NCBI GenBank assembly: GCA_021299555.1
Contig: JAJTGH010000043.1
Coordinates: forward strand, 1-55,674
Length of the DNA stretch: 55,674 nt
Direction of reading: 5' to 3'
From: Comamonadaceae bacterium
GTDB taxonomy: Bacteria; Pseudomonadota; Gammaproteobacteria; Burkholderiales; Burkholderiaceae_C
The position numbers were made by a program, and so were the translations under genes. Shown piece after piece: positions 2,247 to 35,850 of the stretch. Numbering within the stretch: the first letter of the stretch is position 1; the number at the start of each line of letters is the position of its first letter. Below the pieces are notes generated by a model, which was not told the DNA's origin, did no database searches, and was given only the letters and a program-made list of their open reading frames with translations.

Positions 2247-2663
2247 ATGCTGCAACCTGCTCGCAGAAAATATCGCAAGGAGCAAAAGGGCCGTAACACC
2301 GGCGTTGCCACCCGTGGCAACTCGGTCGCTTTCGGCGATTTTGGTCTCAAGTGCACCGACCGCGGTCGTCTGACCGCGCGCCAGATCGAGGCCGCTCGCC
2401 GTGCGATCTCCCGCCATGTCAAGCGGGGTGGTCGCATCTGGATTCGCGTGTTCCCCGACAAGCCGATCTCCCAAAAACCTGCCGAGGTGCGTATGGGCAA
2501 CGGCAAGGGCAACCCGGAGTATTACGTGGCTGAAATCCAGCCTGGCAAGATCGTGTTTGAGATTGTCGGTGTGCCTGAAGAGCTGGCGCGTGAGGCGTTT
2601 CGCCTGGCTTCGGCCAAGCTGCCCCTGCGCACGACCTTCGTCAGCCGCATGATTGGCCAGTGA
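2247..2663 (+). CDS. rplP: 50S ribosomal protein L16 (uL16)
   Basis: L16 contacts tRNA in the A and P sites of the large subunit. The 138-residue product starts [17 protein letters not shown], as expected, and contains [20 protein letters not shown] and [14 protein letters not shown], both diagnostic. An AGGAG site lies at 2235-2239. Length matches the family (136-138). It is flanked by rpsC and rpmC in the usual order. Confidence 0.98.
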
Positions 2664-2681
2664 TCCAGGAGACAAAAGACC

Positions 2682-2885
2682 ATGAAAACTTCTGAACTGC
2701 GTCAAAAAGATGTGGACGGCCTGAAGGCCGAAGTCAAGGCGCTGCAAAAAGCCCACTTTGGCCTGCGCATGCAAAAAGCGACCCAGCAATTGAGCGATGC
2801 CTCCCAGCTTCGGTCTACCCGCCGTGCCATCGCAAGGGCCAAGACCATTCTGGCCGAGACCGTTGCCAAAGGAGCTGCCAAATGA
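2682..2885 (+). CDS. rpmC: 50S ribosomal protein L29 (uL29)
   Basis: L29 is a small helical hairpin protein at the exit-tunnel rim, near the docking site for trigger factor and SRP. The 67-residue product begins [10 protein letters not shown] and has the expected coiled segments ([20 protein letters not shown]), ending with the [11 protein letters not shown] helix. Its stop overlaps the start of rpsQ by four bases (ATGA), indicating translational coupling. Confidence 0.96.
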
Positions 2886-3148
2886 GCGACACGAAAAAAC
2901 TCACCCGCACCCTGATTGGCAAGGTTGTCAGCGACAAGCGCGCCAAGACCGTGACCGTGCTGGTGGAGCGCCGCGTCAAGCACGCGCTCTATGGCAAGAT
3001 CGTCTCCATGTCGAGCAAATACCACGCCCACGACGAAAAGGGTGAGTACCACCTGGGTGACATCATCGAGATCACCGAGAGCCGTCCGCTGTCCAAGACC
3101 AAAAACTGGGTGGTGACCAAGCTCGTTCAAAAAGCGGCCATCGTCTGA
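2882..3148 (+). CDS. rpsQ: 30S ribosomal protein S17 (uS17)
   Basis: S17 is an early-assembly OB-fold protein of the 30S subunit. The 88-residue product has [20 protein letters not shown] and [19 protein letters not shown], both family hallmarks. It starts inside the end of rpmC and is the last gene of the cluster: a strong terminator lies 29 bases after its stop. rplN, the first gene of the spc cluster, does not follow. Confidence 0.97.
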
Positions 3149-3177
3149 TCAGCCCAGATCCTTCTGGCGTTCTAAAA

Positions 3178-3201
3178 GGCCCACCTCGGTGGGCCTTTTT
3201 T
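3178..3201 (+). terminator. Intrinsic terminator of the S10 operon
   Basis: An 8-bp perfect stem (GGCCCACC with GGTGGGCC, 3178-3185 and 3188-3195) with a 2-base nominal loop, so at least one closing pair must open, is followed directly by six T residues (3196-3201). It lies 29 bases after the rpsQ stop and is the expected end of the ribosomal transcript. Confidence 0.93.
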
Positions 3202-3371
3202 ATAGGGCGGCGCGCAGCCGTTCATCCAGACCTGTACCTGGCTTTGTAGCGTGCATCGCCCCCGTGCGTGGATGTTTTGGGCTCTGAGCCCTGCGCTGTG
3301 CAATGTTTGGCAAAACCGCACACAATCGTGGTTCGCATTTTTTTCAGACCCCTACCTATTGAGGAGAACCC

Positions 3372-3878
3372 ATGATCAAAGTTGGAGACAGCCTGCCTGC
3401 CGCCACCCTGATGGAATACTCGGAAGTTGAAGGCAATGGCTGCAGCATAGGCCCCAACCCGGTCGATGTGGCCAAGGCCGCTGCCGGCAAGACCATTGCT
3501 CTGTTTGCCTTGCCCGGCGCATTCACACCCACTTGCTCGGCCAAGCATGTGCCCGGCTATGTGGAGAAGTTCAATGAACTCAAGGGCGCCGGTGTCGACG
3601 AGATCTGGTGCGTGAGCGTCAATGACGCGTTCGTGATGGGCGCCTGGGCGCGTGACCAAAAGACCGCAGGCAAGGTGCGCATGCTCGGTGATGGCAGTGC
3701 CGAATTTTCCAAAGCGGTCGGACTGACGCTGGACCTGACGGCCCGCGGCATGGGTGTGCGCAGCAACCGTTATTCCATGCTCATCAAGGACGGCAAGGTC
3801 GCCGCCCTCAATGTGGAAGGCCCCGGCAAGTTTGAGGTCAGCGACGCTGGCACCATGCTCGCTCAGGCCAAGGGCTAA
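3372..3878 (+). CDS. Peroxiredoxin of the Prx5/redoxin type
   Basis: The product should reduce hydrogen peroxide and alkyl peroxides in the cytoplasm using a thiol partner such as glutathione/glutaredoxin. It is 168 residues long, normal for bacterial Prx5. The active-site motif PGAFTPTCS (residues 48-56) places the peroxidatic cysteine at Cys55. A conserved Trp-Ala block (MGAWARDQ) and a C-terminal arginine region (RSNRYSMLI) also fit the family. The ATG at 3372 follows GAGGAG at 3360-3365. It has its own terminator, so it is probably monocistronic. Confidence 0.93.
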   Translation: MIKVGDSLPAATLMEYSEVEGNGCSIGPNPVDVAKAAAGKTIALFALPGAFTPTCSAKHVPGYVEKFNELKGAGVDEIWCVSVNDAFVMGAWARDQKTAGKVRMLGDGSAEFSKAVGLTLDLTARGMGVRSNRYSMLIKDGKVAALNVEGPGKFEVSDAGTMLAQAKG

Positions 3879-3896
3879 GTCACCGCCTGGCCCCTT

Positions 3897-3923
3897 GAAA
3901 AAACCGCCTCATGGGCGGTTTTT
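3897..3923 (+). terminator. Intrinsic terminator after peroxiredoxin gene
   Basis: Arms AAACCGCC (3901-3908) and GGCGGTTT (3914-3921) pair around a five-base loop, with T residues on the right and A residues on the left. It lies between the convergent peroxiredoxin and acetyltransferase genes and could act in both directions. Confidence 0.85.
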
Positions 3924-3950
3924 CACTTCAGTGCCCCGTTGCTGCCTGCT

Positions 3951-4439
3951 TCAGAGATCGACCTTGAGGTAGTGCGCCCCTGGCAGCGGGTTGTGGTAGT
4001 AGGGCTCGATCTCCTCGAAGCCAAGCTCTGCGTAAAGCTGCCGGGCTGCTTCCATGTCGTCGAGCGTGTCAAGCAGCACGCTGTGGTAGCCGGCAGCGCG
4101 GGCCGCATCCAAGATGGCTTCAGCCAGCTGTCGACCCAGGCCAAAGCGCCGAAACGGTTTGCGCACATACAGACGTTTCATTTCGGCAGCGTTTGGGTAA
4201 TCGGCCGTATCGAGCGGGCGCAGGGCGCAGCAGCCGACGACCTGCCCGTCTATCAGGGCCAGCAGCATTGCCCCGCGCGGTGGCGCGTATTCTCCCGGCA
4301 GAGTGCTCAGTTCCGCGGCAAAACCTTGGAAATCCAGATCAATGCCCAGCGCGTCGGCATACTCCTGAAAGATGATGCGGACTGCGGCCAACTCATGGTG
4401 CTGGCTGGGGCTGATCAGTTCGACTTCAGGATGGTTCAC
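3951..4439 (-). CDS. GNAT-family N-acetyltransferase
   Basis: A single GNAT domain that should transfer an acetyl group from acetyl-CoA to an amine; the substrate cannot be read from sequence. The acetyl-CoA-binding motif A is visible as KRLYVRKPFRRFGLGRQL, including R-x-x-G-x-G-like spacing. The C-terminal segment AARQLYAELGFEEIEPYY is typical motif B. I chose the GTG at 4439 because it overlaps the TGA of the upstream cytochrome b561 gene as GTGA, suggesting coupling. A GTG at 4463 is an alternative that adds 8 residues. Confidence 0.82.
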   Translation of the reverse strand: MNHPEVELISPSQHHELAAVRIIFQEYADALGIDLDFQGFAAELSTLPGEYAPPRGAMLLALIDGQVVGCCALRPLDTADYPNAAEMKRLYVRKPFRRFGLGRQLAEAILDAARAAGYHSVLLDTLDDMEAARQLYAELGFEEIEPYYHNPLPGAHYLKVDL

Positions 4440-5047
4440 GCGGCAAGGGGCTTGCAGGGGCACAGCTTGTACGAATGCAGGGCCTTGTCTCCGTGGAACA
4501 TGGCCCCGACGATGGCATGGCCCTTGAAGGAGTGCCAGGCGATGGCTATGAGATGCAGCAGCACCAGGGCGATCAGGATCAGCTTGCCGATCGTCTTGTG
4601 GTAAGCGCTGGCTGTGCTGACCGTAGCCCCCGATACCAGGTGAGTCAGGGGTCCGGCAAAGGCGATTTCGTCGTCGCTCATCAGGCCGCTGCCGACCTGG
4701 GCTAACAAGACCAGGCCGAAAGCGAGCACCGCCAAAGAACCCAGTGCGCCGTGGCCAGTTCGCAGTTGCACCGTGTTGCGGCCACGCACCTCATCGGCCA
4801 GCGCACGAGGTCGCAGTGGGAATGACGAAAACCGAGACCAATGGCCGCCCATGACACCCCACAGCAGGCGAAACATCAGCAGCGTCATGACCGCCTGGCC
4901 AAAGCGAAAATGCCAGAGCATGGCGGAACCGCCGATGTTGCCGCTGATCACCAAACCCACCACACAAAGCGCCAAAGCCCAGTGAAAGACCCGCGTAGGC
5001 AGGTCCCAGATGCGGGTGCGGTACGGATGGCTGGCTTCTTGATTCAT
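4436..5047 (-). CDS. Cytochrome b561-type membrane protein
   Basis: A 203-residue di-haem-type b cytochrome of the bacterial cytochrome b561/Ni-hydrogenase cytochrome b family, moving electrons between quinol and a periplasmic c-type cytochrome. Four hydrophobic helices are visible at about residues 20-40, 50-68, 100-121 and 153-171, with candidate haem-ligand histidines at 22, 46, 99 and 165. It is divergent from the cytochrome c' gene, a frequent pairing, so cytochrome c' is its likely redox partner. The gene is followed by an overlapping acetyltransferase. Confidence 0.88.
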   Translation of the reverse strand: MNQEASHPYRTRIWDLPTRVFHWALALCVVGLVISGNIGGSAMLWHFRFGQAVMTLLMFRLLWGVMGGHWSRFSSFPLRPRALADEVRGRNTVQLRTGHGALGSLAVLAFGLVLLAQVGSGLMSDDEIAFAGPLTHLVSGATVSTASAYHKTIGKLILIALVLLHLIAIAWHSFKGHAIVGAMFHGDKALHSYKLCPCKPLAA

Positions 5048-5220
5048 GTTGTGCTCCGGTCGGTGGGGTCAAGGCCTTGAAATAATTGTCAGCCAGGACG
5101 CTGTTTTGATGGATTTTGGGTGAGCGCTGCGCTGGAGTATTCGCAAGCCGCTAGACTACGCCGGCCCAGGCCTGTCGTCTGAGCGGGCTCCCGGTCTCTT
5201 CATTCTGCAAGGAAGCACCC

Positions 5221-5676
5221 ATGAAATTTTTCGTTCCTCTCGCATCGGCCTTCGCCCTGCTCGCCGTGAGCGCTCCGGCATCGGCCCAGTTTGCCAAGCC
5301 GGAAGACTCCATCCGCTATCGGCAGAGCTCCTTGTTCATCATGGGTCAGCATTTTGCGCGCATCGGCGCCATGGCCAACGGCCGGACGCCGTTTGACGCC
5401 AAAGTGGCGGCCGAAAACGCCGAAATCGTCGCGGCCATGGCCAAGCTGCCCTGGGCAGGTTTTGGTCCGGGCACCGACAAGGGCGCTGCGACCAAGGCCA
5501 AGCCTGAAATCTGGAGCGAGCAGGCCAAATTCCGTGAAGCCAGCGAAAAAGCCATGACCGAAACCGCCAAGCTTGCAGCGGCGGCCAAGACCGGCAACCT
5601 CGATGCAATGAAAGCCGCTTTTGGGGCCACGGCCGGCTCCTGCAAGGCCTGCCACGACGCTTACCGCGGTCAGTGA
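5221..5676 (+). CDS. Cytochrome c' (periplasmic, class II)
   Basis: Cytochromes c' are four-helix-bundle haem proteins that bind NO and CO and protect against nitrosative stress. A signal peptide of about 22 residues ends ASA-Q. The mature part has the helix containing RQSSLFIMGQHF, expected near the distal haem face, and a single C-terminal haem site CKACH at Cys141, Cys144 and His145, the class II position. Total length is 151, normal. An AAGGAAG site at 5209-5215 precedes the ATG. Confidence 0.93.
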   Translation: MKFFVPLASAFALLAVSAPASAQFAKPEDSIRYRQSSLFIMGQHFARIGAMANGRTPFDAKVAAENAEIVAAMAKLPWAGFGPGTDKGAATKAKPEIWSEQAKFREASEKAMTETAKLAAAAKTGNLDAMKAAFGATAGSCKACHDAYRGQ

Positions 5677-5689
5677 TGGGTCTGGGGGT

Positions 5690-5711
5690 GCGCCGGGCTC
5701 TGACCCGGCGC
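5690..5711. other. GC-rich perfect hairpin between convergent genes
   Basis: Eight-base perfect arms GCGCCGGG (5690-5697) and CCCGGCGC (5704-5711) with a six-base loop lie between the stop of the cytochrome c' gene and the stop of the convergent TlpA-like gene. No T run follows on either strand, so an intrinsic terminator is uncertain; it may be a transcript-end stabiliser. Confidence 0.5.
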
Positions 5712-5727
5712 CGCACAGGGCCTGCCC

Positions 5728-6240
5728 TTAACTTTCTGCCAGCAGTTTTTCGATCAGCTGGTGCATGGCTGCGAAGTCAGGTTCGCCCACGTACTGCTTG
5801 ACGATCTCGCCACGCTTGTTCACCAAAAAAGTGGTGGGGGTGATTTTGATGTCTCCCCAAGCCTTGGCCACTGCGCCGGTGTTGTCGATCGCCACCTTGA
5901 AGGGCAGTTGCCGGCTTTGGCTGAAGTTGACCACATAGGCGGGCGGGTCATAGCTCATGGCCACGGCCACCGTTTCATAGCCGCGCGGGTGGAATTGCTG
6001 GTGGGTCTGTATCAGTTTGGGCATCTCGGCCACGCAGGAGATACAGCTGGTGGCCCAGAAATTGACCAGCACCACCTTGCCTTTGAGGCCTTGCGTGCTG
6101 GTTTGGCTGCCGTCGAGTAGAACAAAACGGGTATCTGGTGCCGCCTGCTTCGTCGAGCAGCTGGTCAGCAGCAGGCCCACGGCCAGTGCCAGACCAGCCA
6201 TCCAAATGCGGTGGGAAACCTGACGAATCGAAGCACTCAT
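5728..6240 (-). CDS. TlpA/ResA-like thioredoxin-fold lipoprotein
   Basis: A membrane-anchored thiol-disulfide oxidoreductase acting outside the cytoplasm, possibly in cytochrome c maturation or protection of exported thiols. From the ATG at 6240 it is 170 residues. A lipobox LLTSC puts the lipidated cysteine at about residue 28. The thioredoxin fold follows with redox motif WATSCISC (C66 and C69 in this numbering) and a cis-proline segment ITPTTFLV. It is convergent with cytochrome c'. An upstream in-frame TTG would add two residues. The physiological partner is not known. Confidence 0.9.
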   Translation of the reverse strand: MSASIRQVSHRIWMAGLALAVGLLLTSCSTKQAAPDTRFVLLDGSQTSTQGLKGKVVLVNFWATSCISCVAEMPKLIQTHQQFHPRGYETVAVAMSYDPPAYVVNFSQSRQLPFKVAIDNTGAVAKAWGDIKITPTTFLVNKRGEIVKQYVGEPDFAAMHQLIEKLLAES

Positions 6241-6288
6241 GCGCAAAGTGTATCGGGCTCAGGCCGGTTCGGTGCAGACCCCATGCGC

Positions 6289-7533
6289 TCAGATGACTTT
6301 TTTCGCTTTGAGCCCGTTGAGTTTCTCAGCGTCCCAGCCTAGCACCGAGCCCAACACCTCGTCGGTGTGCTGACCCAGCAGGGGCGGCGGCAGGCCTTGT
6401 CCCGGCCCGCGCACCGGCGTGGCGCTCAGTTTCATGGGGCTGGCCACCAGGCTCAGGTCCTGGCGTGCCGGATGCTGCCAGTGGTTGATCATGCCCCGCT
6501 CGTTGACCTGCGGATCGGCGAACACCTCAGCCAAATTGTTGATCGCACCGCAAGGCACCTTGGCCGCTTCCAGGGCTGTCAGCCAGTCCGACTTGCGGCG
6601 GGTTTTCATGATCGCTTCGAGCATGGGTACCAGCTCGCTGCGGTTGACCACACGCTGCCTGTTGGTGGCAAAGCGTGGATCGCTGGCCAGATCGGGCCGG
6701 CCGGCAACCTCACAAAACTTTGCGTACTGTCCGTCATTGCCAACGGCCAGGATGAGATGGTCGCGGCTGTCATCATCGGCGGGCGCCACTTCAAACACCT
6801 GGTAGGGCACGATGTTCTGGTGCGCATTGCCAGCTCGGCCGGGTACCTTGCCGCTGACCAGGTAGTTGGCGCCCAGGTTGGCCAGCATGGCCACTTGGGT
6901 GTCGAGCAAGGCCATGTCGATGTGTTGGCCCTGGCCGCTGCGCTCGGCGTGACGCAGTGCCGCCAAAATGGAGACGGTGGCGTACATGCCGGTCATCAGG
7001 TCCGCCACGGCCACGCCTACTTTTTGGGGCCCACCACCGAGGTCGTCACGCTCGCCGGTGATGCTCATCAGGCCGCCCATCCCTTGAATCGCATAGTCGT
7101 AGCCGGCGCGCTCCGCGTACGGCCCGCTTTGGCCAAAACCGGTGATGGAACAGTACACCAGACGCGGGTTGATGGCTTGGAGCGACGCAAAGTCCAGGCC
7201 GTAGCGTGCCATGTCGCCAACCTTGAAGTTTTCCACGAACACGTCGCAATGGCGCACCAATTCGCGAATGAGCGCCTGCCCCTGTGGCTGGGCGATGTCG
7301 CAGGTCACCGAGCGCTTGTTGCGGTTGGCGCCCAGGTAGTAGGCCGCCTCGCGGGTTTCCTGGCCTTGGTCGTCGTGCAGAAACGGCGGGCCCCAGCCGC
7401 GCGTGTCATCGCCCTGGCCGGGCCGCTCGATCTTGATCACGTCAGCGCCCAGGTCGGCCAGGTTCTGGGTGCACCATGGACCGGCGAGCACGCGGGACAA
7501 GTCCAGGACACGGATGCCTTGCAAAGAGTTCAT
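6289..7533 (-). CDS. CaiB/BaiF-family (class III) CoA-transferase
   Basis: The enzyme moves CoA between acyl groups through an aspartyl-CoA thioester. From the ATG at 7533 (MNSLQGIRVLDLSRVLAGPW) it is 414 residues, normal for the family. The catalytic aspartate is in VGVAVADLMTG at Asp178. Other conserved blocks are ADLGADVIKIERP near residue 26 and GFGQSGPYAERAGYD near 132. The substrate cannot be named: formyl-, succinyl- or hydroxymethylglutaryl-CoA types all look alike here. Six extra N-terminal residues are possible from an upstream start at 7551. Confidence 0.92.
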   Translation of the reverse strand: MNSLQGIRVLDLSRVLAGPWCTQNLADLGADVIKIERPGQGDDTRGWGPPFLHDDQGQETREAAYYLGANRNKRSVTCDIAQPQGQALIRELVRHCDVFVENFKVGDMARYGLDFASLQAINPRLVYCSITGFGQSGPYAERAGYDYAIQGMGGLMSITGERDDLGGGPQKVGVAVADLMTGMYATVSILAALRHAERSGQGQHIDMALLDTQVAMLANLGANYLVSGKVPGRAGNAHQNIVPYQVFEVAPADDDSRDHLILAVGNDGQYAKFCEVAGRPDLASDPRFATNRQRVVNRSELVPMLEAIMKTRRKSDWLTALEAAKVPCGAINNLAEVFADPQVNERGMINHWQHPARQDLSLVASPMKLSATPVRGPGQGLPPPLLGQHTDEVLGSVLGWDAEKLNGLKAKKVI

Positions 7534-7634
7534 CGCAGCATTGTGGCGCACAGGCCATGCGTTTGCTGCGCATCAGGCTTAGCGGCCCGCTGCCTTGCGC
7601 AGGGGCGGACAGCGAATGCCTGTACAGTCCCGGG

Positions 7635-8162
7635 GTGCGACCGCTCCGTTTCTCCTTTCTGCTGACCGTTTTGGGCGGCTTGATGCTCGCCTGCAGTCCC
7701 ACCCTCAATTGGCGTGAGGTGCGCCCCGATGGTGTGAGCAGCATGACTCTCCTGCTGCCCTGCAAACCCGATCGGGCCAGCAAAACCGTACCCTTGGGCG
7801 GACGCCCGACCCGTCTGTCCATGACGGGCTGCGAGGCCGGGGGCGCCTTGTTTGCCCTGGCGGTGGCCGAGCTCGCCGATCCTGACCAGACGGCTCAGCT
7901 GCTCGATCAATGGCAGAGCTTGACCCTTGCTCACATGCGTGCTGCGCAATCGAGGTCTGAGCCAGTCCAGGTCAGCGGCGCGGACGCTCGAGTGCCGGCA
8001 TTGCATGTCTGGGCCCGAGGCACTCACCCCGATGGGCAGGCCATTGAAGGTCAGGCGCGTTACTTTGCCCGTGGCAGCCAGATGTTTCAGGCCGTGATCT
8101 ACGCCCCGCGCATAGCGCCCGAGGCTGCAGAAACCTTTTTTTCGAGTTTCAAGCTCCCATGA
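7635..8162 (+). CDS. Predicted lipoprotein of unknown function
   Basis: I do not recognise a family. From the GTG at 7635 the product is 175 residues and begins with a hydrophobic signal ending in a lipobox-like LMLAC, so it is probably lipidated and anchored in an envelope membrane. The rest is a small soluble domain with two further cysteines (LLPCKPD and MTGCEAGG). No strong ribosome binding site is visible, so the start is inferred from the signal peptide. Its stop overlaps the MFS start by four bases (ATGA), implying coupled expression. Confidence 0.7.
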   Translation: MRPLRFSFLLTVLGGLMLACSPTLNWREVRPDGVSSMTLLLPCKPDRASKTVPLGGRPTRLSMTGCEAGGALFALAVAELADPDQTAQLLDQWQSLTLAHMRAAQSRSEPVQVSGADARVPALHVWARGTHPDGQAIEGQARYFARGSQMFQAVIYAPRIAPEAAETFFSSFKLP

Positions 8163-9409
8163 GTGCAGCAAGCCCCGATTCGTTGGCGGACAGCGAGCGG
8201 CTTGTAGGCCGGGCGGCCGTGTTCGTGTTCCTGGCATTTGCCATGGGCTATTTCAGCTCGGCTGTGGTGCGCGCAGTCATTGCCACGCTCTCGCCCGTTC
8301 TCACGCAGGAGTTTGGTCTGACGGCAGCCGATCTGGGCTTGCTCGGCGGGGGCTTTTTCCTTGGCTTTGCCAGCACCCAGTTGCTGCTGGGCGCTTGGCT
8401 GGACAAGTACGGCCCGGGTCGCGTGGCGGTGTGTTTTCTGGCCGTTGCCGTGCTCGGCTGCCTGGCATTTCCCCTTTCGAACAACTTTGCCGCATTGCTG
8501 GCTTCGCGGGTGCTGCTGGGCGTCGGCGTGAGCGCCTGCCTGATGGCTCCGCTCACCGGCTTTCGCCGCTGGTACGAGCCGGCGCAGATGCTGCGCGCCA
8601 ACTCCTGGATGCTCATGGTGGGTTCCTTGGGCATGGTCTGCGCCACTTTGCCTGTGCAGTGGCTGTTACCTCTGGTGGGCTGGCGCCCTTTGTTCTGGGG
8701 AATGGCCGGTTTGTTGTTGGTGGCCATGGTGCTGACCGTCCGCCTGGTGCCTGGGCCCAGCACAGCGCCCCCTGATTCGACCCAGCCCGCCCCTGGCTAT
8801 GCGGCGGTTTGGCGCAGCCCGGCTTTTCGGCGTTTGTTGCCGGTGTCGTTTTTTATCAATGGCGGCTTGATCGCCCTGCAGACCTTGTGGCTGGGGCCTT
8901 GGTTGACACGGGTGGTGGGTCTCGATCCTTTGCAGGCTGCCGCGGGCTTGTTTTCCATCAACCTGGCGAGCCTGGTGGCGTTTTCTGTTTGGGGGCTGGT
9001 GATGCCCACCCTGAGCCGGCGCGGCTGGACGGCTGAGCGCTTGCTGCGATTGGGCATACCCCTGATGCTCTGTGTGCTGACCGTCAATCTGGCCCTGGGC
9101 AGTCACGCGGGTTGGCCGGCCTGGGCCGTGTTTGTTGCGCTGGCCAGTGTGGTTTCGCTGGCCCAGCCGGCATTGAGCATGACCTTTGCCCCCTCGCTGG
9201 CGGGCCGCGCTCTGTCGGCCTACAACCTGGTGTGTTTTCTGGGAATTTTTTTCCTGCAGTGGGGCATTGGGCTGGCCATCGATGGCTTGCTGGCTCTTGG
9301 CTGCACGCAAGCGACCAGCTTTCAGGGGGCGTTTGCGATTTATCTGTGCAGCGCCCTGGCTTCTTACATCCACTACGTGCGCGCCAAGGCGGATAATCTG
9401 CGGCCATGA
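8159..9409 (+). CDS. MFS-family transporter
   Basis: A 416-residue inner-membrane protein with about 12 hydrophobic segments. The cytoplasmic loop after helix 2 carries GAWLDKYGPGRV, the MFS loop 2-3 signature D-x-x-G-x-R type. The N-terminal half reads MGYFSSAVVRAVIATLSPVL, like anion/organic-acid MFS members. The substrate is unknown. It overlaps both neighbours: its ATG lies in the lipoprotein stop and its stop lies in the EIIA start (ATGA at 9406), so it appears to be part of the same transcript as the PTS genes. Confidence 0.88.
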   Translation: MSAASPDSLADSERLVGRAAVFVFLAFAMGYFSSAVVRAVIATLSPVLTQEFGLTAADLGLLGGGFFLGFASTQLLLGAWLDKYGPGRVAVCFLAVAVLGCLAFPLSNNFAALLASRVLLGVGVSACLMAPLTGFRRWYEPAQMLRANSWMLMVGSLGMVCATLPVQWLLPLVGWRPLFWGMAGLLLVAMVLTVRLVPGPSTAPPDSTQPAPGYAAVWRSPAFRRLLPVSFFINGGLIALQTLWLGPWLTRVVGLDPLQAAAGLFSINLASLVAFSVWGLVMPTLSRRGWTAERLLRLGIPLMLCVLTVNLALGSHAGWPAWAVFVALASVVSLAQPALSMTFAPSLAGRALSAYNLVCFLGIFFLQWGIGLAIDGLLALGCTQATSFQGAFAIYLCSALASYIHYVRAKADNLRP

Positions 9410-9849
9410 ACGGCATCCTGGTCATTGCGCACGCTCCTTTGGCCTCGGCCATGGAGCGCTGTATCTCGCATGTGTTCAGCGACCGGCCAGCTTGTTTCGC
9501 TGTGCTCGATGTCCAGCCCAATGTGCCGCCTGAAGAGACGCTGGCACAAGCGCGGCTGGTCATGCAGCAACTGGGCTGCCCGACCTGTTTGGTGATGACC
9601 GATATCTTTGGCGCCACCCCCTGTAATGTGGCGCAAAAACTGGTCGACGGCGTGCGCAGCAGGCTCGTTACCGGCCTGAATCTGCCCATGCTGCTGCGCG
9701 CTCTGTCCTACCGTGAGGACAGCCTCGATGCCCTGGTGGCCCGCACCTTGGCTGGCGCCAGCCAGGGGGTGATGCAAGTGGCGGCCACGGCACCGCAGAA
9801 TCAGAACCGACGAAGCCATGATCAAGACCAGCGTGACCATCAGCAATAA
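9406..9849 (+). CDS. PTS EIIA component, mannose (Man) type
   Basis: A phosphocarrier that accepts phosphate from HPr. The family's active-site histidine is at His9 in ILVIAHAPLA, and the conserved MTDIFGATPCN segment is at about residues 65-75. Length (147) fits a stand-alone Man-type EIIA. No EIIB, EIIC or EIID gene lies nearby, so it probably works in regulation, not in sugar uptake. The last 32 bases overlap the HPr gene in another frame; the tail after about residue 125 is polar, low in complexity and probably free of structure. Confidence 0.92.
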   Translation: MNGILVIAHAPLASAMERCISHVFSDRPACFAVLDVQPNVPPEETLAQARLVMQQLGCPTCLVMTDIFGATPCNVAQKLVDGVRSRLVTGLNLPMLLRALSYREDSLDALVARTLAGASQGVMQVAATAPQNQNRRSHDQDQRDHQQ

Positions 9850-10087
9850 GTTGGGCCTGCATGCCCGCGCTTCGGCCAAGCTGACCAAGCTTGCCGGCAG
9901 TTACCCTTGCGAGGTCTGGATGAGCCGCGGTGAGCGGCGGGTCAATGCCAAGAGCATCATGGGCGTGATGATGCTGGCCGCTGGTTTGGGCACCTCGGTG
10001 GAGCTCGAGACCGACGGCGAGCGCGAGCAGGAAGCCATGGACGCGCTGCTTGCCCTGATCAACGACAAGTTTGGCGAGGGGCAATGA
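9818..10087 (+). CDS. ptsH: Phosphocarrier protein HPr
   Basis: HPr passes phosphate from EI to EIIA proteins. The 89-residue protein has the EI-phosphorylated histidine at His15 (LGLHARASAK) and the regulatory serine at Ser46 (NAKSIMGVMML), the site used by HPr kinase/phosphorylase. It starts 32 bases inside the EIIA gene and its stop overlaps the EI start (ATGA), so translation is coupled along EIIA-HPr-EI. Confidence 0.96.
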   Translation: MIKTSVTISNKLGLHARASAKLTKLAGSYPCEVWMSRGERRVNAKSIMGVMMLAAGLGTSVELETDGEREQEAMDALLALINDKFGEGQ

Positions 10088-11841
10088 CTTTTTCCATCCA
10101 CGGTCTGGCGGTCTCGCGCGGCATTGCCATTGGGCGTGCGGTGCTGGTGGCCTCCAGCCGTGCGGATGTGGCGCACTACTTCATTGACCCCGATCAGGCC
10201 GAACAGGAGGTACAGCGCATCCGGGTGGCCCGAGACTCGGTGGTTGAGGAAATTACCCGCGTGCAGCGCGATCTGCCCAGCGATGCCCCCCCCGAGCTGG
10301 CCGCGCTGCTCGACGTGCACCTGATGCTGCTGCAAGATGAGCAACTGTCGGCCGGGGTCAAGCACTGGATTGCCGAGCGCAACTACAACGCTGAGTGGGC
10401 CATCACCACCCAATACGAGGCGCTGGCCAGGCAATTCGATGAAATGCAAGACCCATACTTGCGCGAGCGCAAGGCCGACCTCGAACAGGTGGTCGAGCGC
10501 TTGCTGCGCGCCCTCAAGGGAGCGGCCTCGCCCGTACAGCCTCAGGCCACGCGGCGCACTCCCCAGGGCGAGTTGTTGGGCGACTCCATGGACGTGCCGC
10601 TGGTGCTGGTGGCCCACGACCTGTCGCCGGCCGACATGCTGCAATTCAAGCAAAGTCTTTTTGTCGGCTTTGCAACTGACGTGGGCGGGCGTACCTCGCA
10701 CACGGCCATCGTGGCGCGCAGCATGGACATTCCGGCGGTGGTCGGTGCGCGCAGTGCCAGCAGCCTGATCGCGCAAGACGACTGGGTCATCATTGATGGC
10801 GACGCCGGCGTGCTCATCGTCGATCCCTCGCCCATCATCTTGGCCGAATACGGCTTCAAGCAGCGCCAGGGCGAGCTCGAGCGCGAGCGGCTCAATCGGC
10901 TGCGACACACGCCTGCGGTCACGCTCGACGGGCAAAAGATCGAGTTGCTGGCCAATATTGAACTGCCCCAAGACACTGCCGGCGCCCTGGCCGCCGGCGC
11001 CGTGGGCGTGGGCCTGTTCCGAAGCGAATTTTTGTTCATGGGCCGGGCTGGTCAGCTGCCCAATGAGGATGAGCAGTACCGCGCTTATCTGGCGGCTGTC
11101 GATGGCATGCAGGGCTTGCCCGTGACCATACGCACGGTAGACATCGGCGCTGACAAGCCGCTCGATCGCGGGGCGCGGGCCGACGACCATCTCAACCCCG
11201 CCCTGGGATTGCGGGCCATCCGCTGGAGCTTGGCCGACCCACCGATGTTCCTGACGCAGTTGCGCGCCATCTTGCGCGCGGCCGCCCACGGCCCGATCCA
11301 CCTGCTCGTGCCCATGCTGGCCCATGCGCGCGAAATCCGGCAAACCCTCTCGCTGATCGATCACGCCCGCGCCCAGCTCGACAACAAGGGATTGGCCTAC
11401 GGACCGGTCAAGCTCGGCGCCATGATCGAGGTGCCGGCCGCTGCGATCAATCTGGGGCCGTTCTTAAGGTATTTCGACTTTCTCTCGATCGGCACCAACG
11501 ACCTGATTCAGTACACCCTGGCCATCGACCGCGCCGACGAAGCGGTGGCGCACTTGTACGATCCCTTGCACCCAGCGGTGCTGCGCCTGCTGGCCGACAC
11601 CATTGGCCAGTGTCGCGCGCAGGGCCGCCCGGTCAGTGTGTGCGGCGAGATGGCGGGCGATCCGGCCATGACCCGGCTGTTGCTCGGCCTGGGATTGCGC
11701 TCGTTTTCCATGCACCCTTCACAGGTGCTGCTGGTCAAGCAGCAGGTGCTGCGTGCCGACGCGGGCAAGCTCGAGGCCTGGGCCCAGCAGGTGATCAGCA
11801 GCGATGATCCCGGTCAGGCGATGCAAGCTGCGCGGCAGTAA
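10084..11841 (+). CDS. ptsI: PTS enzyme I (phosphoenolpyruvate-protein phosphotransferase)
   Basis: EI takes phosphate from phosphoenolpyruvate and gives it to HPr. The 585-residue product has the phospho-histidine motif GGRTSHTAIVARSMDIPAVV with His206, the PEP-binding region FRSEFLFMGR, the segment DFLSIGTNDLIQYTLAIDR, and the C-terminal VCGEMAGDP with the active-site cysteine. All domains are complete. Together with the EIIA and HPr genes it forms a permease-less phosphorelay, as in other betaproteobacteria. Confidence 0.96.
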   Translation: MTFSIHGLAVSRGIAIGRAVLVASSRADVAHYFIDPDQAEQEVQRIRVARDSVVEEITRVQRDLPSDAPPELAALLDVHLMLLQDEQLSAGVKHWIAERNYNAEWAITTQYEALARQFDEMQDPYLRERKADLEQVVERLLRALKGAASPVQPQATRRTPQGELLGDSMDVPLVLVAHDLSPADMLQFKQSLFVGFATDVGGRTSHTAIVARSMDIPAVVGARSASSLIAQDDWVIIDGDAGVLIVDPSPIILAEYGFKQRQGELERERLNRLRHTPAVTLDGQKIELLANIELPQDTAGALAAGAVGVGLFRSEFLFMGRAGQLPNEDEQYRAYLAAVDGMQGLPVTIRTVDIGADKPLDRGARADDHLNPALGLRAIRWSLADPPMFLTQLRAILRAAAHGPIHLLVPMLAHAREIRQTLSLIDHARAQLDNKGLAYGPVKLGAMIEVPAAAINLGPFLRYFDFLSIGTNDLIQYTLAIDRADEAVAHLYDPLHPAVLRLLADTIGQCRAQGRPVSVCGEMAGDPAMTRLLLGLGLRSFSMHPSQVLLVKQQVLRADAGKLEAWAQQVISSDDPGQAMQAARQ

Positions 11842-14308: not shown

Positions 14309-15265
14309 TCAGCTCCCAAGGGCCTGCGCCGCCGCGTGGGCCTGCTGGTCGGCGTGATAGCTTGAGCGAACCATGGCACCGACGGCGGCATGTGAAAAGC
14401 CCATTTCGTAGGCTTTTTCTTCGAACATCTTGAAGGTGTCGGGGTGCACGTAGCGTCGCACCGGCAGGTGGCTGCTGCTGGGCGCCAGGTATTGGCCGAT
14501 GGTGAGCATCTCGATGTCGTGCTCGCGCATGTCGCGCATGGCTTGCAAGATTTCTTCATCGGTTTCGCCCAAGCCGACCATCAGGCCGCTCTTGGTTGGC
14601 ACGTTGGGAAAAAGTGCCTTGAATTTTTTGAGCAGATTCAAGGAAAAGGCGTAGTCTGAACCGGGCCGGGCCTGTTTGTATAGGCGCGGTACGGTCTCCA
14701 AGTTGTGGTTCATCACGTCAGGCGGCGCGGCCTGCAGGATGCTCAAGGCGCGGTCGTCACGGCCTCGGAAGTCGGGCACCAGCACCTCGATTTGTGTGTC
14801 TGGTGAGAGCTCGCGGGTCTTGCGGATGCACTCAACAAAATGCGCTGCACCCCCATCGCGCAGGTCGTCACGGTCAACGCTCGTGATCACCACATAGCTC
14901 AGCTTGAGCGCGGCAATGGTGCGCGCGAGGTTGTCGGGCTCTTGAGCGTTGTGTGGGTCGCGGGTGCATTTGTCACCCATGATCATGAAGGTGGCCGTGC
15001 CCTTGCCAAAGCATTCGCCGATGTTGGGGCAACTGGCTTCCTCGCACACGGTCACCAACTTGTTCTGGCGCAAGATGTCCTTGATTTCGTAGAAGCGGGT
15101 GCCGGCGCTGGCTGCCTTGACCCGGATCCAGTCGGGCTTTTTGAGCACCTCGGCCGGCTCAACCTTGACCGGTATGCGCGAGAGTTTGGCTGCGGCCTTC
15201 TGCTTGGCCAGAGGGTTGTATTGGTCGGCACTTTGTGCTTCGTGCACGGTGGGGTTGTTGCTCAT
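14309..15265 (-). CDS. lipA: Lipoyl synthase with radical-SAM cysteine segment deleted
   Basis: LipA inserts two sulfur atoms into protein-bound octanoyl groups. The 318-residue product carries the auxiliary-cluster cysteines Cys74, Cys79 and Cys85 ([12 protein letters not shown]) and the C-terminal serine in VRSSYH. Family members then read C-T-R-R-C-P-F-C; here Cys100-Thr-Arg is followed directly by [10 protein letters not shown]. About 12 residues are missing in frame at the junction 14959/14960, removing two of the three cysteines that hold the catalytic [4Fe-4S] cluster. The rest is well conserved ([29 protein letters not shown]). As read, the protein should be inactive. Same strand and 12 bases after lipB. 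Confidence 0.93.
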
Positions 15266-16470: not shown

Positions 16471-17007
16471 TTGAATACTTCGTCGTCATCCGGTGCCGGT
16501 GCTTCCAAAGACTCTGGTGGTTCTGTGCCAGACGGGGTTTCGGGTTGGCGCCGTTGGGACGATGATGCGGCGCCAGAGGCCGCGCGCCCCCTGACACGAG
16601 AGCAGGTGGTGCAGATGGGGCTGGACAGGGCCCAGGTGTCGGTCTGGCGGGTGCTGCTGTGGCAGGCTTTGACCGGGACAGGGGCGGCGGTCTTGGTGGG
16701 CTTGCTGTCGGGTCGGTTGGCGCTGGCAGTGTCGCTGCTTTATGGGGCGGCGGCGGTGGTTGTGCCGGGTTTGGTTTTTGCGCGCGGTTTGACCGGGCGT
16801 TTGTCCTCGATCAATCCGGGGACGGCAGTGATGGGCTTCTTTGTTTGGGAGTTCGTCAAGATCGGCCTGACGATTGCCATGTTGGTGGCAGCGCCCAGGT
16901 TGCTGACAGATTTGAGTTGGCCGGCCTTGTTGGCGGGTCTGGTGTTGACCATGAAGGTGGTCTGGTTGGCGGTGTGGTTCAAGTCCCGCCGTCGTCGGGC
17001 GATCTGA
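16471..17007 (+). CDS. atpI: ATP synthase accessory protein AtpI
   Basis: AtpI helps assemble the c-ring of the F1Fo ATP synthase. The 178-residue product has a polar N terminus and four hydrophobic helices, with [20 protein letters not shown] near residue 110 as the recognisable block. The only upstream in-frame start is a TTG at 16471; the ATG at 16437 is in another frame and is soon stopped. The start is therefore uncertain, but the body is clear. It is the first gene of the atp operon. Confidence 0.85.
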
Positions 17008-17032
17008 GGAACTTGGAAGAACGGGCAAGAAG

Positions 17033-18215
<1,183 letters not shown>

Positions 18216-18289
18216 TTGTTGCCGGCCCTCGTGCACAGACCCGGATTGCCAGGCCGTTGAGGCCGCAGGCGTCGGGGAAAGGAACCCAA

Positions 18290-18760
18290 GTGAGCATTAC
18301 CGGTACCCTCATCATCCAGATCATTGTTTTCTTGATTCTGGTGTGGTTTACGATGAAATTCGTTTGGCCCCCGATCACGGCGGCGCTGGACGAGCGTGCG
18401 CGCAAGATAGCCGACGGCTTGGCTGCTGCCGACAAGGCCAAGGCCGACTTGTCAGCTGCCAACCAGCGTGTGGAGCAGGAGCTCTCCAAGTCACGCAACG
18501 AGTCGGCGGTTCGGCTGGCTGAGGCCGAGCGACGCGCTCAGGCCATGATCGAAGAGGCCAAGGCCAAAGCCGCCGAAGAGGCGGCCAAGATCATTGCTGC
18601 TGCCCGCGCTGAAGCCGAGCAGCAGACGGTCAAGGCCCGCCAGACTCTGCGCGAAGAGGTCGCTGGGCTGGCCGTCAAGGGCGCAGAGCAGATCCTGCGT
18701 CGCGAGGTCAATGCCAGCGTCCATGCTGATCTGCTCTCCCGCCTGAAAGCCGAGCTCTGA
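18290..18760 (+). CDS. atpF: ATP synthase Fo subunit b
   Basis: Subunit b is the peripheral stalk linking Fo to delta/alpha. The GTG at 18290 gives 156 residues, the E. coli length, and is preceded by GGGGAAAGGA. An N-terminal membrane helix ([19 protein letters not shown]) is followed by a long charged helix ([20 protein letters not shown] onward), as expected. The gene lies three bases before atpH. Confidence 0.95.
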
Positions 18761-18763
18761 GCC

Positions 18764-19109
18764 ATGGCTGAACTTGCCACCATCGCACGGCCTTATGCCG
18801 AGGCTCTGTTCAAGAGCAGTGCGTCCGACCTCAAGGGCTCGCTGGCCTGGCTCGAAGAGCTCGCTGCCATCGCGGCCGACCCGCAGTTGCAGCAACTGGC
18901 CGACGACCCCAAAGTCACGGCCGAGCAGACGTACGGTGTCATGGCGGGCGTTTGCAAGACCGCTTTGTCGGACAAGGCGCGCAATTTCCTTCGGACCGTG
19001 GTCGACAACGGGCGCCTGTCGGCCTTGCCAGAGGTGGCGCGTCAGTTCCGCATTCTGGTCCTCGATCAAAGCCCGTTTGGAACAAATGAAAGTGGCGCTG
19101 ATCGCCTGA
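18764..19109 (+). pseudogene. atpH: ATP synthase subunit delta, internal deletion with frameshift
   Basis: Delta joins the b stalk to the top of alpha. The N-terminal helical domain is normal from [16 protein letters not shown] to [12 protein letters not shown] (about residue 107). The usual C-terminal end then appears in another frame as [15 protein letters not shown], with its stop at 19109. About 50 codons between these points are absent; the junction lies near 19060-19064. The original frame instead runs through unrelated residues to a stop at 19138. A protein from either frame lacks most of the C-terminal domain that binds subunit b. All other atp genes are full length. Confidence 0.9.
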
Positions 19110-19153
19110 GCCGCGGCGACGCTCACCAACCAACTTGAAAGAAGGAAAGAGTC

Positions 19154-20707
<1,554 letters not shown>

Positions 20708-20741
20708 AGCCTTCTCGCCCAGGAACCCTCTAGGAACTCAT

Positions 20742-21602
20742 ATGGCAGCAGGCAAGGAAATCCGCGGCAAGATCAAATCGGTGGAAAACACCAAGAAGAT
20801 CACCAAGGCCATGGAAATGGTGGCCGCCTCCAAGATGCGCAAGGCGCAGGAACGCATGCGCTCGGCCCGCCCCTACAGCGACAAGGTGCGCAACATTGCG
20901 GCCAACCTGAGTCAGGCCAACCCCGAGTACACCCACCCATTCATGCAGGTCAACGACGCCAAGGCCACCGGCTTTATCGTCGTCACCACGGACAAGGGCT
21001 TGTGTGGCGGCCTCAACACCAACGTGCTGCGCGCCGTCACGGGCAAGCTTCGCGAGGTGCAGTCGGCCGGACAGACGGTGCAGGCGGTGGCCATCGGGAC
21101 CAAGGGTTTGGGCTTTCTCAACCGCATCGGTGCTCCCGTCGTCTCGCATGTCACGCAGCTCGGTGACAAGCCCCACCTCGAAAAGCTGATCGGCCCGGTC
21201 AAGGTGCTGCTCGATGCTTATGCGCAGGGCAAGGTCAACTCGGTGTATCTGTGCTACACCAAGTTCATCAACACCATGCGCCAGGAGCCGGTGGTCGAGC
21301 AGTTGCTGCCGCTGGCCAAGCTCGAGGCCGACAAAGGCCACCACGGCTGGGATTACATCTACGAGCCTGACGCGCAGTCGGTCATCGACGACCTGCTGGT
21401 ACGTTATGTCGAGGCCCTGGTGTACCAGTCTGTGGCCGAGAACATGGCGTCGGAGCAGTCGGCCCGGATGGTGGCCATGAAAGCTGCGACCGACAACGCC
21501 GGCAATGTGATTTCGGAACTCAAGTTGGTTTACAACAAGACGCGCCAAGCGGCGATCACGAAAGAGCTTTCGGAGATCGTGGCCGGTGCAGCAGCCGTCT
21601 GA
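20742..21602 (+). CDS. atpG: ATP synthase F1 subunit gamma
   Basis: The rotor shaft of F1. The 286-residue product begins [20 protein letters not shown] and has the conserved [12 protein letters not shown] block and the C-terminal coiled-coil [16 protein letters not shown]...YNKTRQA. Length is normal. Confidence 0.97.
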
Positions 21603-21625
21603 GCCCGCGGGCCGACGTCGAATGA

Positions 21626-23059
<1,434 letters not shown>

Positions 23060-23068
23060 GGAACGCTC

Positions 23069-23485
23069 ATGAGCACCATCCTCGTGGATGTGGTCAGCGC
23101 CGAGGAGTCCATCTTCTCGGGTGAGGCCAAATTCGTGGCTCTGCCCGGCGAGGCCGGTGAACTGGGCATTTATCCGCGCCATACGCCCTTGATCACCCGC
23201 ATTCGTCCCGGTGCGGTGCGCATTGAAAAGACCGATGGCTCGGAAGAGTTCGTTTTCGTGGCAGGCGGCTTGCTTGAGGTTCAGCCCAACCATGTGACCG
23301 TGCTCAGTGACACGGCCATCCGAGGCAAAGACCTCGATGAGGCCAAGGCCAGCGAGGCACGCAAGGTCGCTGAAGAAGCGGTCAAGAATGCCAAGAGCGA
23401 CATCGATCTGGCCAAGGCGCAGTCTGAATTGGCCGTCATGGCCGCTCAGATTGCGGCATTGCGCAAGTACCGCCAAAAGCGCTAA
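23069..23485 (+). CDS. atpC: ATP synthase F1 subunit epsilon
   Basis: Epsilon is part of the rotor and an internal inhibitor of ATP hydrolysis. The 138-residue product has the beta-sandwich segment with [17 protein letters not shown] and a C-terminal pair of helices. It is nine bases after atpD and is followed by a strong terminator, so it closes the operon. Confidence 0.96.
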
Positions 23486-24534: not shown

Positions 24535-25179
24535 TCACACAGACAATTTTTTGCGCAGTGCGGGCAGGGTTTCGGCCACCACGACCTGACCGCAGCGAAC
24601 TTCTGTCATGAAGCTTTCGCGGTCGAGCTTGCCCACTCTTTCGATGGATGCCTTGAGAATATAAACAGCGGTATCGCCTTCGACGCCGTTGTGGTCAGAC
24701 ACCGAGTTGTAGACTGTTTGAGTGCTTTTGCCCCAGGCCTGCAACACGGGGGCCTTGACGGTCAAGCCCACGTGGGCCACGGCGCCATCTGCCGCATCGC
24801 CAGCGAGTTCGACCACCTTGGAGCTGGTCAGAACAGTCTCGCCGATGATCGGTTGACTCCAGCCCTGTCTGCGTAACCCGCGCAGCAAGCGGACCGAGAC
24901 CTCTTCATTGGTACAAGCAAAGATCGCATCGGCGCCCGATGGTTTGGCCTGGATCGGCGCCAAAAAAAATTCCACTTGCCTGGATGCGGTGGAGATCTCG
25001 GCGACGATCTGGGTGGGCGGGCCGGCCATCTCGCCGCCGTTTTTGAACATCGTGCCCGAGGTGGTTCCGGGGCCCGAGAGTTCGACAATGTTGGCAATTT
25101 TGATGTCTTGTGCCCGGGCAAGGCCCAGTGAGCTTGCCAAAGCGGCAGCTGCGGCAAGTGCGGACAGGATGTGTTTCAC
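24535..25179 (-). pseudogene. Branched-chain amino-acid-type (LivK-like) binding protein, eroded by internal deletions
   Basis: The GTG at 25179 begins a signal peptide (VKHILSALAAAAALASSLGLARA) followed by QDIKIANIVELSGPGTTSG, the usual LivK-type start. The frame stays open for 214 residues, while relatives have about 380. After GTMFKNG the text jumps to a segment normally about 120 residues later (IVAEISTASRQVEF), and after ASIERVGKL it jumps to DRESFMTEV, skipping about 30 more. The pieces that remain (ELAGDAADGAVAHVGLTV, VSDHNGVEGDTAVY) are recognisable. Both lobes of the binding fold are damaged, so binding is unlikely. No permease gene adjoins it. Confidence 0.8.
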
Positions 25180-25616
25180 AGGTGTCTTCTTGAGTGTGGT
25201 GGCCTCGTCCCGGCTTGCTGGCACGGATCGATGGATTGATGTGCAGGAGCTCGGGGGCGCCTCAACTGTAGACGATAGGGGCCAGATCAATACGCTGAGG
25301 TTTGGGTCCGTGGGCGCCGAGCGAACATAAATGGGTGATTGTCGATCGCTTTGGGGCTAACTCCTTGGCTCCTGTTTGTTCAGGAAGAGTGCTCACCCCA
25401 AGTGGGGCAGGCCGGGCAACTCGTCGTCGGTGCGCTGCTGCGGCCGTGGCAAGAGAGCCAGAAAAAATTTCGATGCGCGCAGGGTTCTATCCACTTCTCA
25501 GAGGTGGGGCCACAAGGTACACACTAACATACCGACTGCGCGCCCTGACCGAACAAGCGAGGCTTTTTGACGCAGGGCGCGTCCGACAAGCACCAACCAG
25601 CGTTTCTTATCAAGAC
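25180..25616. other. 437-base stretch with no recognised gene
   Basis: No gene, RNA, IS end or clear promoter can be supported here. Frames are open over part of it: the frame of the downstream SnoaL-like gene is open back to 25302, and another short frame runs 25339-25527, but neither translation resembles a family I know. A small dyad CCCC-AAGT-GGGG occurs near 25395-25406. It may be decayed sequence left with the neighbouring eroded binding-protein gene. Confidence 0.5.
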
Positions 25617-34894: not shown

Positions 34895-34905
34895 GAAAAT
34901 GCCTC

Positions 34906-35850
34906 TCAGTGTTGGCCCTGCACGTGCGGAAAGACCATCACCGAGTAGAGCTGGGCCAACTTGTTTTCACGAATCAGAGTGCGAGCCGCCGCAGTGGCCA
35001 CCAGCACCTCGTAGGCGGCAACTCGGGTGCCGGATTTGCCTTCGCACAGCACCTGCGAGCCTATGGCCAGCAGCGATTCGGCCAGCATGCTGCGCACCAT
35101 CTCTTTGTCGCCTGCGGGGAAAGCATCGACCAGACGGTCGATGGTCTGCGCTGCCCCGGCGGTGTGCAAAGTGGCCAACACCAGGTGGCCGGTCTCTGCC
35201 GCTGTCAGTGCCAGCTGCATGGTCTCAAGATCGCGCAATTCGCCGACCATGATCACATCGGGATCTTCTCGCAGAGCCGCTCGCAGTGCTTGCCCGTAAC
35301 TGGCCGCGTGCATGCCCAGTTGCCGCTGATGGATCAGGCCCAGCGCGCTGTCATGGATGAATTCGATCGGATCCTCGATCGTGATCAGGTGGCAGGGCTG
35401 ATGTGCCATGAGGTGTTGCAGCAGCGCCGCCAGCGTGCTTGATTTGCCTGAACCGGTGGGGCCGGTGATCAGCAGCAAGCCTTTGGGCTTGAGAGCGAGC
35501 TCAGACAACACCGTCGGCGTGCCAAGTTGCGCAAGCGACGGGATGCGTGAGGCAATGTGCCGCAAGGCCAGGCTGGGGCCGCGCTCATGTGTGTAGGCAT
35601 TGAAGCGAAAACGCCCGACGCCGGGCTGCTCCCAGGCGCCATCGACATCGATCAGCGGTGTCCAGGTCTGGCGCTGATCGGGTGTCATCATCGATTCGGC
35701 CATTGTGCGAATCGCCTGCGCGGTCAGTGGGGCGTGGTCTTGGCGCTGCAGTTTGCCGTGGACTCTGAGCACCGGCGGCAAGCCGCTGGACAGGTGCAGG
35801 TCTGAGGCCTGTTGATCGATGGCCAGGGTCAGCAGTTCATTCAGTGTCAC
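34906..35850 (-). CDS. pilT: PilT-like type IV pilus retraction ATPase, shortened at C terminus
   Basis: A hexameric ATPase of the PilT/YggR group that powers pilus retraction. Walker A is GPTGSGKSS, the Asp box IEDPIEF, Walker B GELRDLE, and the His box LATLHTAGAAQT. The usual AIRNLIRE motif appears as AARTLIRE. The protein ends after AQLYSV with eight unrelated residues, giving 314 residues instead of about 345, so the final helices are missing. Motility function is uncertain. No pilU or other pilus gene follows. Divergent from yggS, a common arrangement. Confidence 0.85.
   Translation of the reverse strand: MTLNELLTLAIDQQASDLHLSSGLPPVLRVHGKLQRQDHAPLTAQAIRTMAESMMTPDQRQTWTPLIDVDGAWEQPGVGRFRFNAYTHERGPSLALRHIASRIPSLAQLGTPTVLSELALKPKGLLLITGPTGSGKSSTLAALLQHLMAHQPCHLITIEDPIEFIHDSALGLIHQRQLGMHAASYGQALRAALREDPDVIMVGELRDLETMQLALTAAETGHLVLATLHTAGAAQTIDRLVDAFPAGDKEMVRSMLAESLLAIGSQVLCEGKSGTRVAAYEVLVATAAARTLIRENKLAQLYSVMVFPHVQGQH

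Follow-up and report, generated by a model that had tools for sequence, protein, structure and literature searches.

A frameshifting deletion in atpH of a Comamonadaceae draft genome is most likely a local assembly error

The F1Fo ATP synthase genes of this Comamonadaceae bacterium stand in a single operon in which one gene, atpH, is broken. The window, i.e., the whole stretch of DNA that was analysed, is 55,674 bases long and corresponds to the entire contig C101 of draft genome G000. This genome is a bin of 217 contigs totalling 2,974,055 bases, with a completeness of 82.85% and a contamination of 4.15%. The locus raises a simple question: has the organism lost an intact F1 delta subunit, or is the deposited sequence wrong at this point? 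The deletion is true of the deposited sequence and is most likely not a biological feature.

The lesion in atpH

The initial annotation, made from the letters of the window, described a frameshifting deletion inside an otherwise complete atp operon, where the N-terminal domain stops at QFRILV and the C terminus continues in another frame. Alignment confirms this description for the deposited sequence. The relatives chosen for the alignment of atpH were L064 (a Comamonadaceae bin, JAIXWZ010000038.1), L065, G012, and G021; the gene is intact in all four, with a protein length of 176 aa. Against each of them, G000 is 185 nt short at a single junction (Table 1). This length is not divisible by 3 and removes ~62 codons. 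The annotation had put the loss at ~50 codons and the normal gene at ~178 codons, and both figures give way to those of the alignment. The bases 3' of the junction, stop codon included, are conserved but lie in a different frame.

The retained 5' part is well preserved. Codons 1-99 are 94% identical to L064 at the amino acid level, and the remaining stretch contains zero stops. The family library, run for two genes of the window (atpH and lipA), recognizes the N-terminal domain with PF00213 at 69 bits (cut-off 22.3). The C-terminal domain is not in the same frame, and TIGR01145, which has a cut-off of 57.5 bits, scores only 54.7. Compared with the bacterial F1 delta subunit (PF00213 / OSCP), the N-terminal domain, the place in the operon, and the C-terminal end are alike, whereas most of the C-terminal part is absent in this assembly. 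The C-terminal part of delta is described as contacting subunit b (PMC6131620).

The rest of the operon is unaffected. Its eight other genes, whose names in Table 1 are those presumed for the neighbours of atpH, align end to end with relatives and are complete; the ends of atpI differ slightly in length. Collapse of a repeat at atpH was considered and rejected, as the microhomology is just 1 nt and the window has no direct repeats of at least 20 nt within 500 nt. The junction itself is clean and contains no N.

Table 1. Features of the atp operon, lipA, and the other interrupted genes of the bin (window positions unless a contig is named)
Feature	Position	Strand	Description
lipA	14309..15265	-	36-nt in-frame deletion at 14960/14961; 12 residues lost
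atpI, atpB, atpE, atpF	16471..18760	+	complete; upstream of atpH
atpH open reading frame	18764-19138	+	124 aa; N-terminal match to QFRILV, then residues that do not match relatives
atpH, intact N-terminal part	18764..19060	+	codons 1-99 (relatives: 176); PF00213 positions 1-98; stop-free
atpH junction	19060..19061	+	185 nt absent vs the four compared relatives; 1 nt microhomology
atpH 3' end, including stop	19062..19109	+	conserved; out of frame with the 5' part
atpA, atpG, atpD, atpC	19154..23485	+	complete; downstream of atpH
hisS, ispG, sucA, mreC, mreB, HAD gene	L163 (G000:C120) 1205, 1671, 17447; L160 14190, 15151; L159 13798		junctions with missing sequence or frame switch

The delta subunit in relatives and elsewhere in the bin

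PF00213 is matched in 55 of the 61 genomes searched, G000 included, and in 39 of the 39 high-quality genomes (completeness of 90% or more, contamination of 5% or less). No PF00213 match was found in six genus members (G005, G015, G020, G022, G030, and G033), each 74-88% complete. Besides G000, a partial best match occurs only in G002, and there the match stops at the contig end. Loss common to the genus, or a pseudogene of the lineage, was rejected on the match in all high-quality relatives and the stop-free atpH remainder.

The annotation had also proposed to look for another atpH copy. The PF00213 search of the bin returned one match only, i.e., no second atpH. The missing atpH segment is likewise not recognizable elsewhere in the bin, where the best match to a relative's segment has an E value of 0.278. 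Because the bin is incomplete, it could lack a second atpH or the missing segment. A search of a plasmid collection gave no match, and a literature search on atpH deletions and atpH mutants found nothing relevant.

A real, recent, and private deletion would leave F1 and Fo uncoupled. The cell would then live without oxidative phosphorylation or would carry an intact copy in the missing part of the genome. The clean, N-free junction with its 1 nt of microhomology agrees with such an event, a stop-free remainder is what a very recent one should leave, and a bin that is just 82.85% complete has room for an intact copy. Nevertheless, a real deletion is very improbable, given the single PF00213 match in the bin, the family's presence in every high-quality relative, and the company that the atpH lesion keeps: similar lesions lie in hisS, ispG, sucA, lipA, and mreC of the same bin, two of which (hisS and ispG) are considered indispensable.

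Deletions in other genes of the same bin

The nearest of these lesions is in lipA, ~4 kb from atpH on the opposite strand. The gene is 36 nt short compared with G012 and L065. When the protein is aligned with those of G012, L064, and L065, the residues lost are RCPFCDVGHGRP, which follow GDKCTR and include two cysteines of CTRRCPFC, a stretch that we take to be the radical-SAM motif of lipA. Against L064, the DNA filter described below reports atpH alone.

Deletions were counted with a filter for clean events: the two sequences had to differ by a net 30 nt or more, the shortened side could retain -15 to +10 nt, and the flanks had to share at least 65% identity over 40 nt. The sample comprised 20 further contigs of the bin, five of which were searched against G012. 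Four of these five (L159, L160, L161, and L163) were compared; L162 was left out since it matched G012 and G021 over ~1.6 kb only. The other 15 contigs were counted for N only.

Comparison of G000 with the same-genus G012 over 97,904 aligned nt yielded seven clean deletions (36, 94, 113, 117, 128, 156, and 185 nt), and the reverse direction yielded one (32 nt). The window contains two of the seven, L163 three, and L159 and L160 one apiece; L161 has none. Against G021 (46,691 nt), there are two clean deletions, both among the seven, vs one in reverse. The control pair G021/G012 has zero either way over 35,379 nt, a pair in which fewer events are expected because the two genomes are mutually closer.

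All seven clean deletions fall inside genes: lipA, atpH, hisS, ispG, sucA, mreC, and a HAD-type hydrolase. Bacteria of this kind are generally regarded as unable to do without hisS (histidyl-tRNA synthetase) or ispG (isoprenoid precursors). The single ispG match in the bin is the broken copy; the second-copy search covered atpH and ispG. The doubt that the annotation had cast on real gene loss is supported. Its treatment of atpH as the one damaged gene is too narrow, as six other genes of this bin carry comparable deletions. Frame switches also occur in four further genes that are split or shortened, namely mreB, an rluB-like gene, a 3-hydroxybenzoate 6-monooxygenase gene, and a THUMP-type methyltransferase gene; these four did not pass the filter and are excluded from the count of seven.

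The lesions are scattered across unrelated genes irrespective of reading frame. Three of the seven lengths are divisible by 3. True indels in conserved genes would nearly all have lengths that are multiples of 3. The five junctions measured (atpH, lipA, hisS, ispG, and sucA) have 0-1 nt of microhomology, so these junctions are not collapsed repeats. The matched stretches of lipA, atpH, hisS, ispG, sucA, mreB, and mreC are stop-free, and there is thus little sign of gradual decay in them. One stop each is found in the HAD gene, in a weakly matching stretch, and in the methyltransferase gene.

Looser comparisons give a less distinct picture. Gene-wise DNA alignment of G000 with G012, with gaps of at least 15 nt and no flank filter, reports 7 gaps in the window and 16 in the other contigs. 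The reverse direction has 11 and 14 and the two controls 1 and 11, and most of these have poor flanks. A cruder protein scan flags 10/53 and 14/39 genes in G000, 7/51 and 9/39 in reverse, and 5/41 and 7/37 in the controls; in every direction, many of the flags are stops in overlapping frames. Because gaps and flags abound in the reverse and control comparisons, the numerical excess of deletions in G000 over the reverse is only moderate, and it is unclear when flanks are unfiltered. What carries the argument is the identity of the affected genes, together with the disregard for reading frame.

Two of the reverse gaps have good flanks (112 and 66 nt), and both sit at a tandem repeat in L161 (G000:C100). 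At 17619-17879, this contig carries a GC-rich 87-nt repeat in three tandem copies, which are 100, 87, and 64% alike, and the matching stretch of G012 is shorter. Overlapping ends left unmerged were considered as the source of the two extra stretches. Their position at a tandem repeat makes them evidence neither way.

Two further genes of the window, both on the minus strand, were kept out of the damage count as uncertain. A substrate-binding protein gene of the branched-chain amino-acid type (24535-25290) is strongly shortened compared with G021, with a 34-residue gap and an N-terminal half that matches poorly. Further assembly loss or true decay may have shortened it. In a PilT/PilU-type ATPase gene (34895-35850, also delimited as 34936-35850), the last 41 residues of relatives are absent, and the adjoining stretch is altered too.

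Origin of the junctions

The comparison with relatives and the identity of the genes hit make it highly probable that the atpH lesion arose through local misassembly of a metagenome-type draft bin and is not a gene loss. Two pieces that truly lie 185 nt apart in atpH would have been joined directly, without filler Ns. The join may date from scaffolding or gap closing, or the assembler may have made it locally without support. In the organism itself, atpH is most likely a normal gene of ~176 codons and the F1Fo ATP synthase likewise normal. The lesions look like a property of the assembly because lipA, hisS, ispG, sucA, mreC, and the HAD gene of the same bin are also hit. Joining by software accounts better than a biological process for lengths that take no account of the reading frame, for the 0-1 nt of microhomology at the five junctions measured, and for the scatter across unrelated genes.

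Several observations run against an assembly error. Pieces that do not overlap can be joined only where some read or scaffold links them. Among the four contigs outside the window that were compared with G012, L161 has no clean deletion. Ns persist at other places in the bin, the missing atpH piece was not found in the rest of the bin, and the count against G021 is two vs one.

The first of these observations bears on another explanation, in which a minority variant or chimeric reads entered the consensus. The deletion would then exist in some molecules, with the main population free of it. An overlap-free join requires a supporting molecule or link, and 0-1 nt of microhomology would suit end-joined or chimeric molecules. 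This origin is nonetheless very improbable, as it would have to occur independently seven times in ~98 kb. It is more improbable still that the deletions are real throughout. That reading calls for frequent non-homologous deletions of 36-185 nt in the population, with the broken essential genes complemented by many genome copies per cell or by neighbours.

Assembly error, the favoured explanation, has precedent. Local assembly errors and scaffold-gap errors occur in metagenome-assembled genomes and spread incomplete or incorrect protein-coding sequences into public databases (PMC7111523). The present case resembles the errors described there in its scattered points within a draft bin and in the damaged protein genes that reach databases. 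The means of detection differ: there, errors are detected by missing read support, and here by comparison with relatives and by the genes hit (PMC7111523).

The bin contains five N-runs of 24-63 nt within the 287,629 nt sampled. It was probably scaffolded, and the N-runs probably stem from that step; some could in principle be masks set by operators. A general removal of all Ns was rejected, because the N-runs that survive elsewhere in the bin show that not every gap was stripped. GC dropout was also rejected, as the lost segments range from the 23rd to the 93rd GC percentile with no clear pattern. In L167 (G000:C160), a run of 52 Ns at 9568-9619 has TCAACCT on both sides, like overlapping ends split by Ns, a pattern consistent with a scaffolding gap.

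If this bin were annotated as it stands, damage would be falsely recorded in the ATP synthase delta subunit, the active site of lipoyl synthase, histidyl-tRNA synthetase, and IspG, among others. Caution is advised with claims of gene loss in draft bins, for which the rate of like lesions in the indispensable genes of that bin should be checked.

One contig of the bin shows a different irregularity. In L160 (G000:C90), a block of ~9 kb (2287-11330) is 94-96% identical to the whole of contig C330 (3716 nt) and 5.5 kb of C83 of G021, and the DNA beyond this block is ~80-83% identical. The high-identity block possibly represents cross-binned contigs or a recent transfer.
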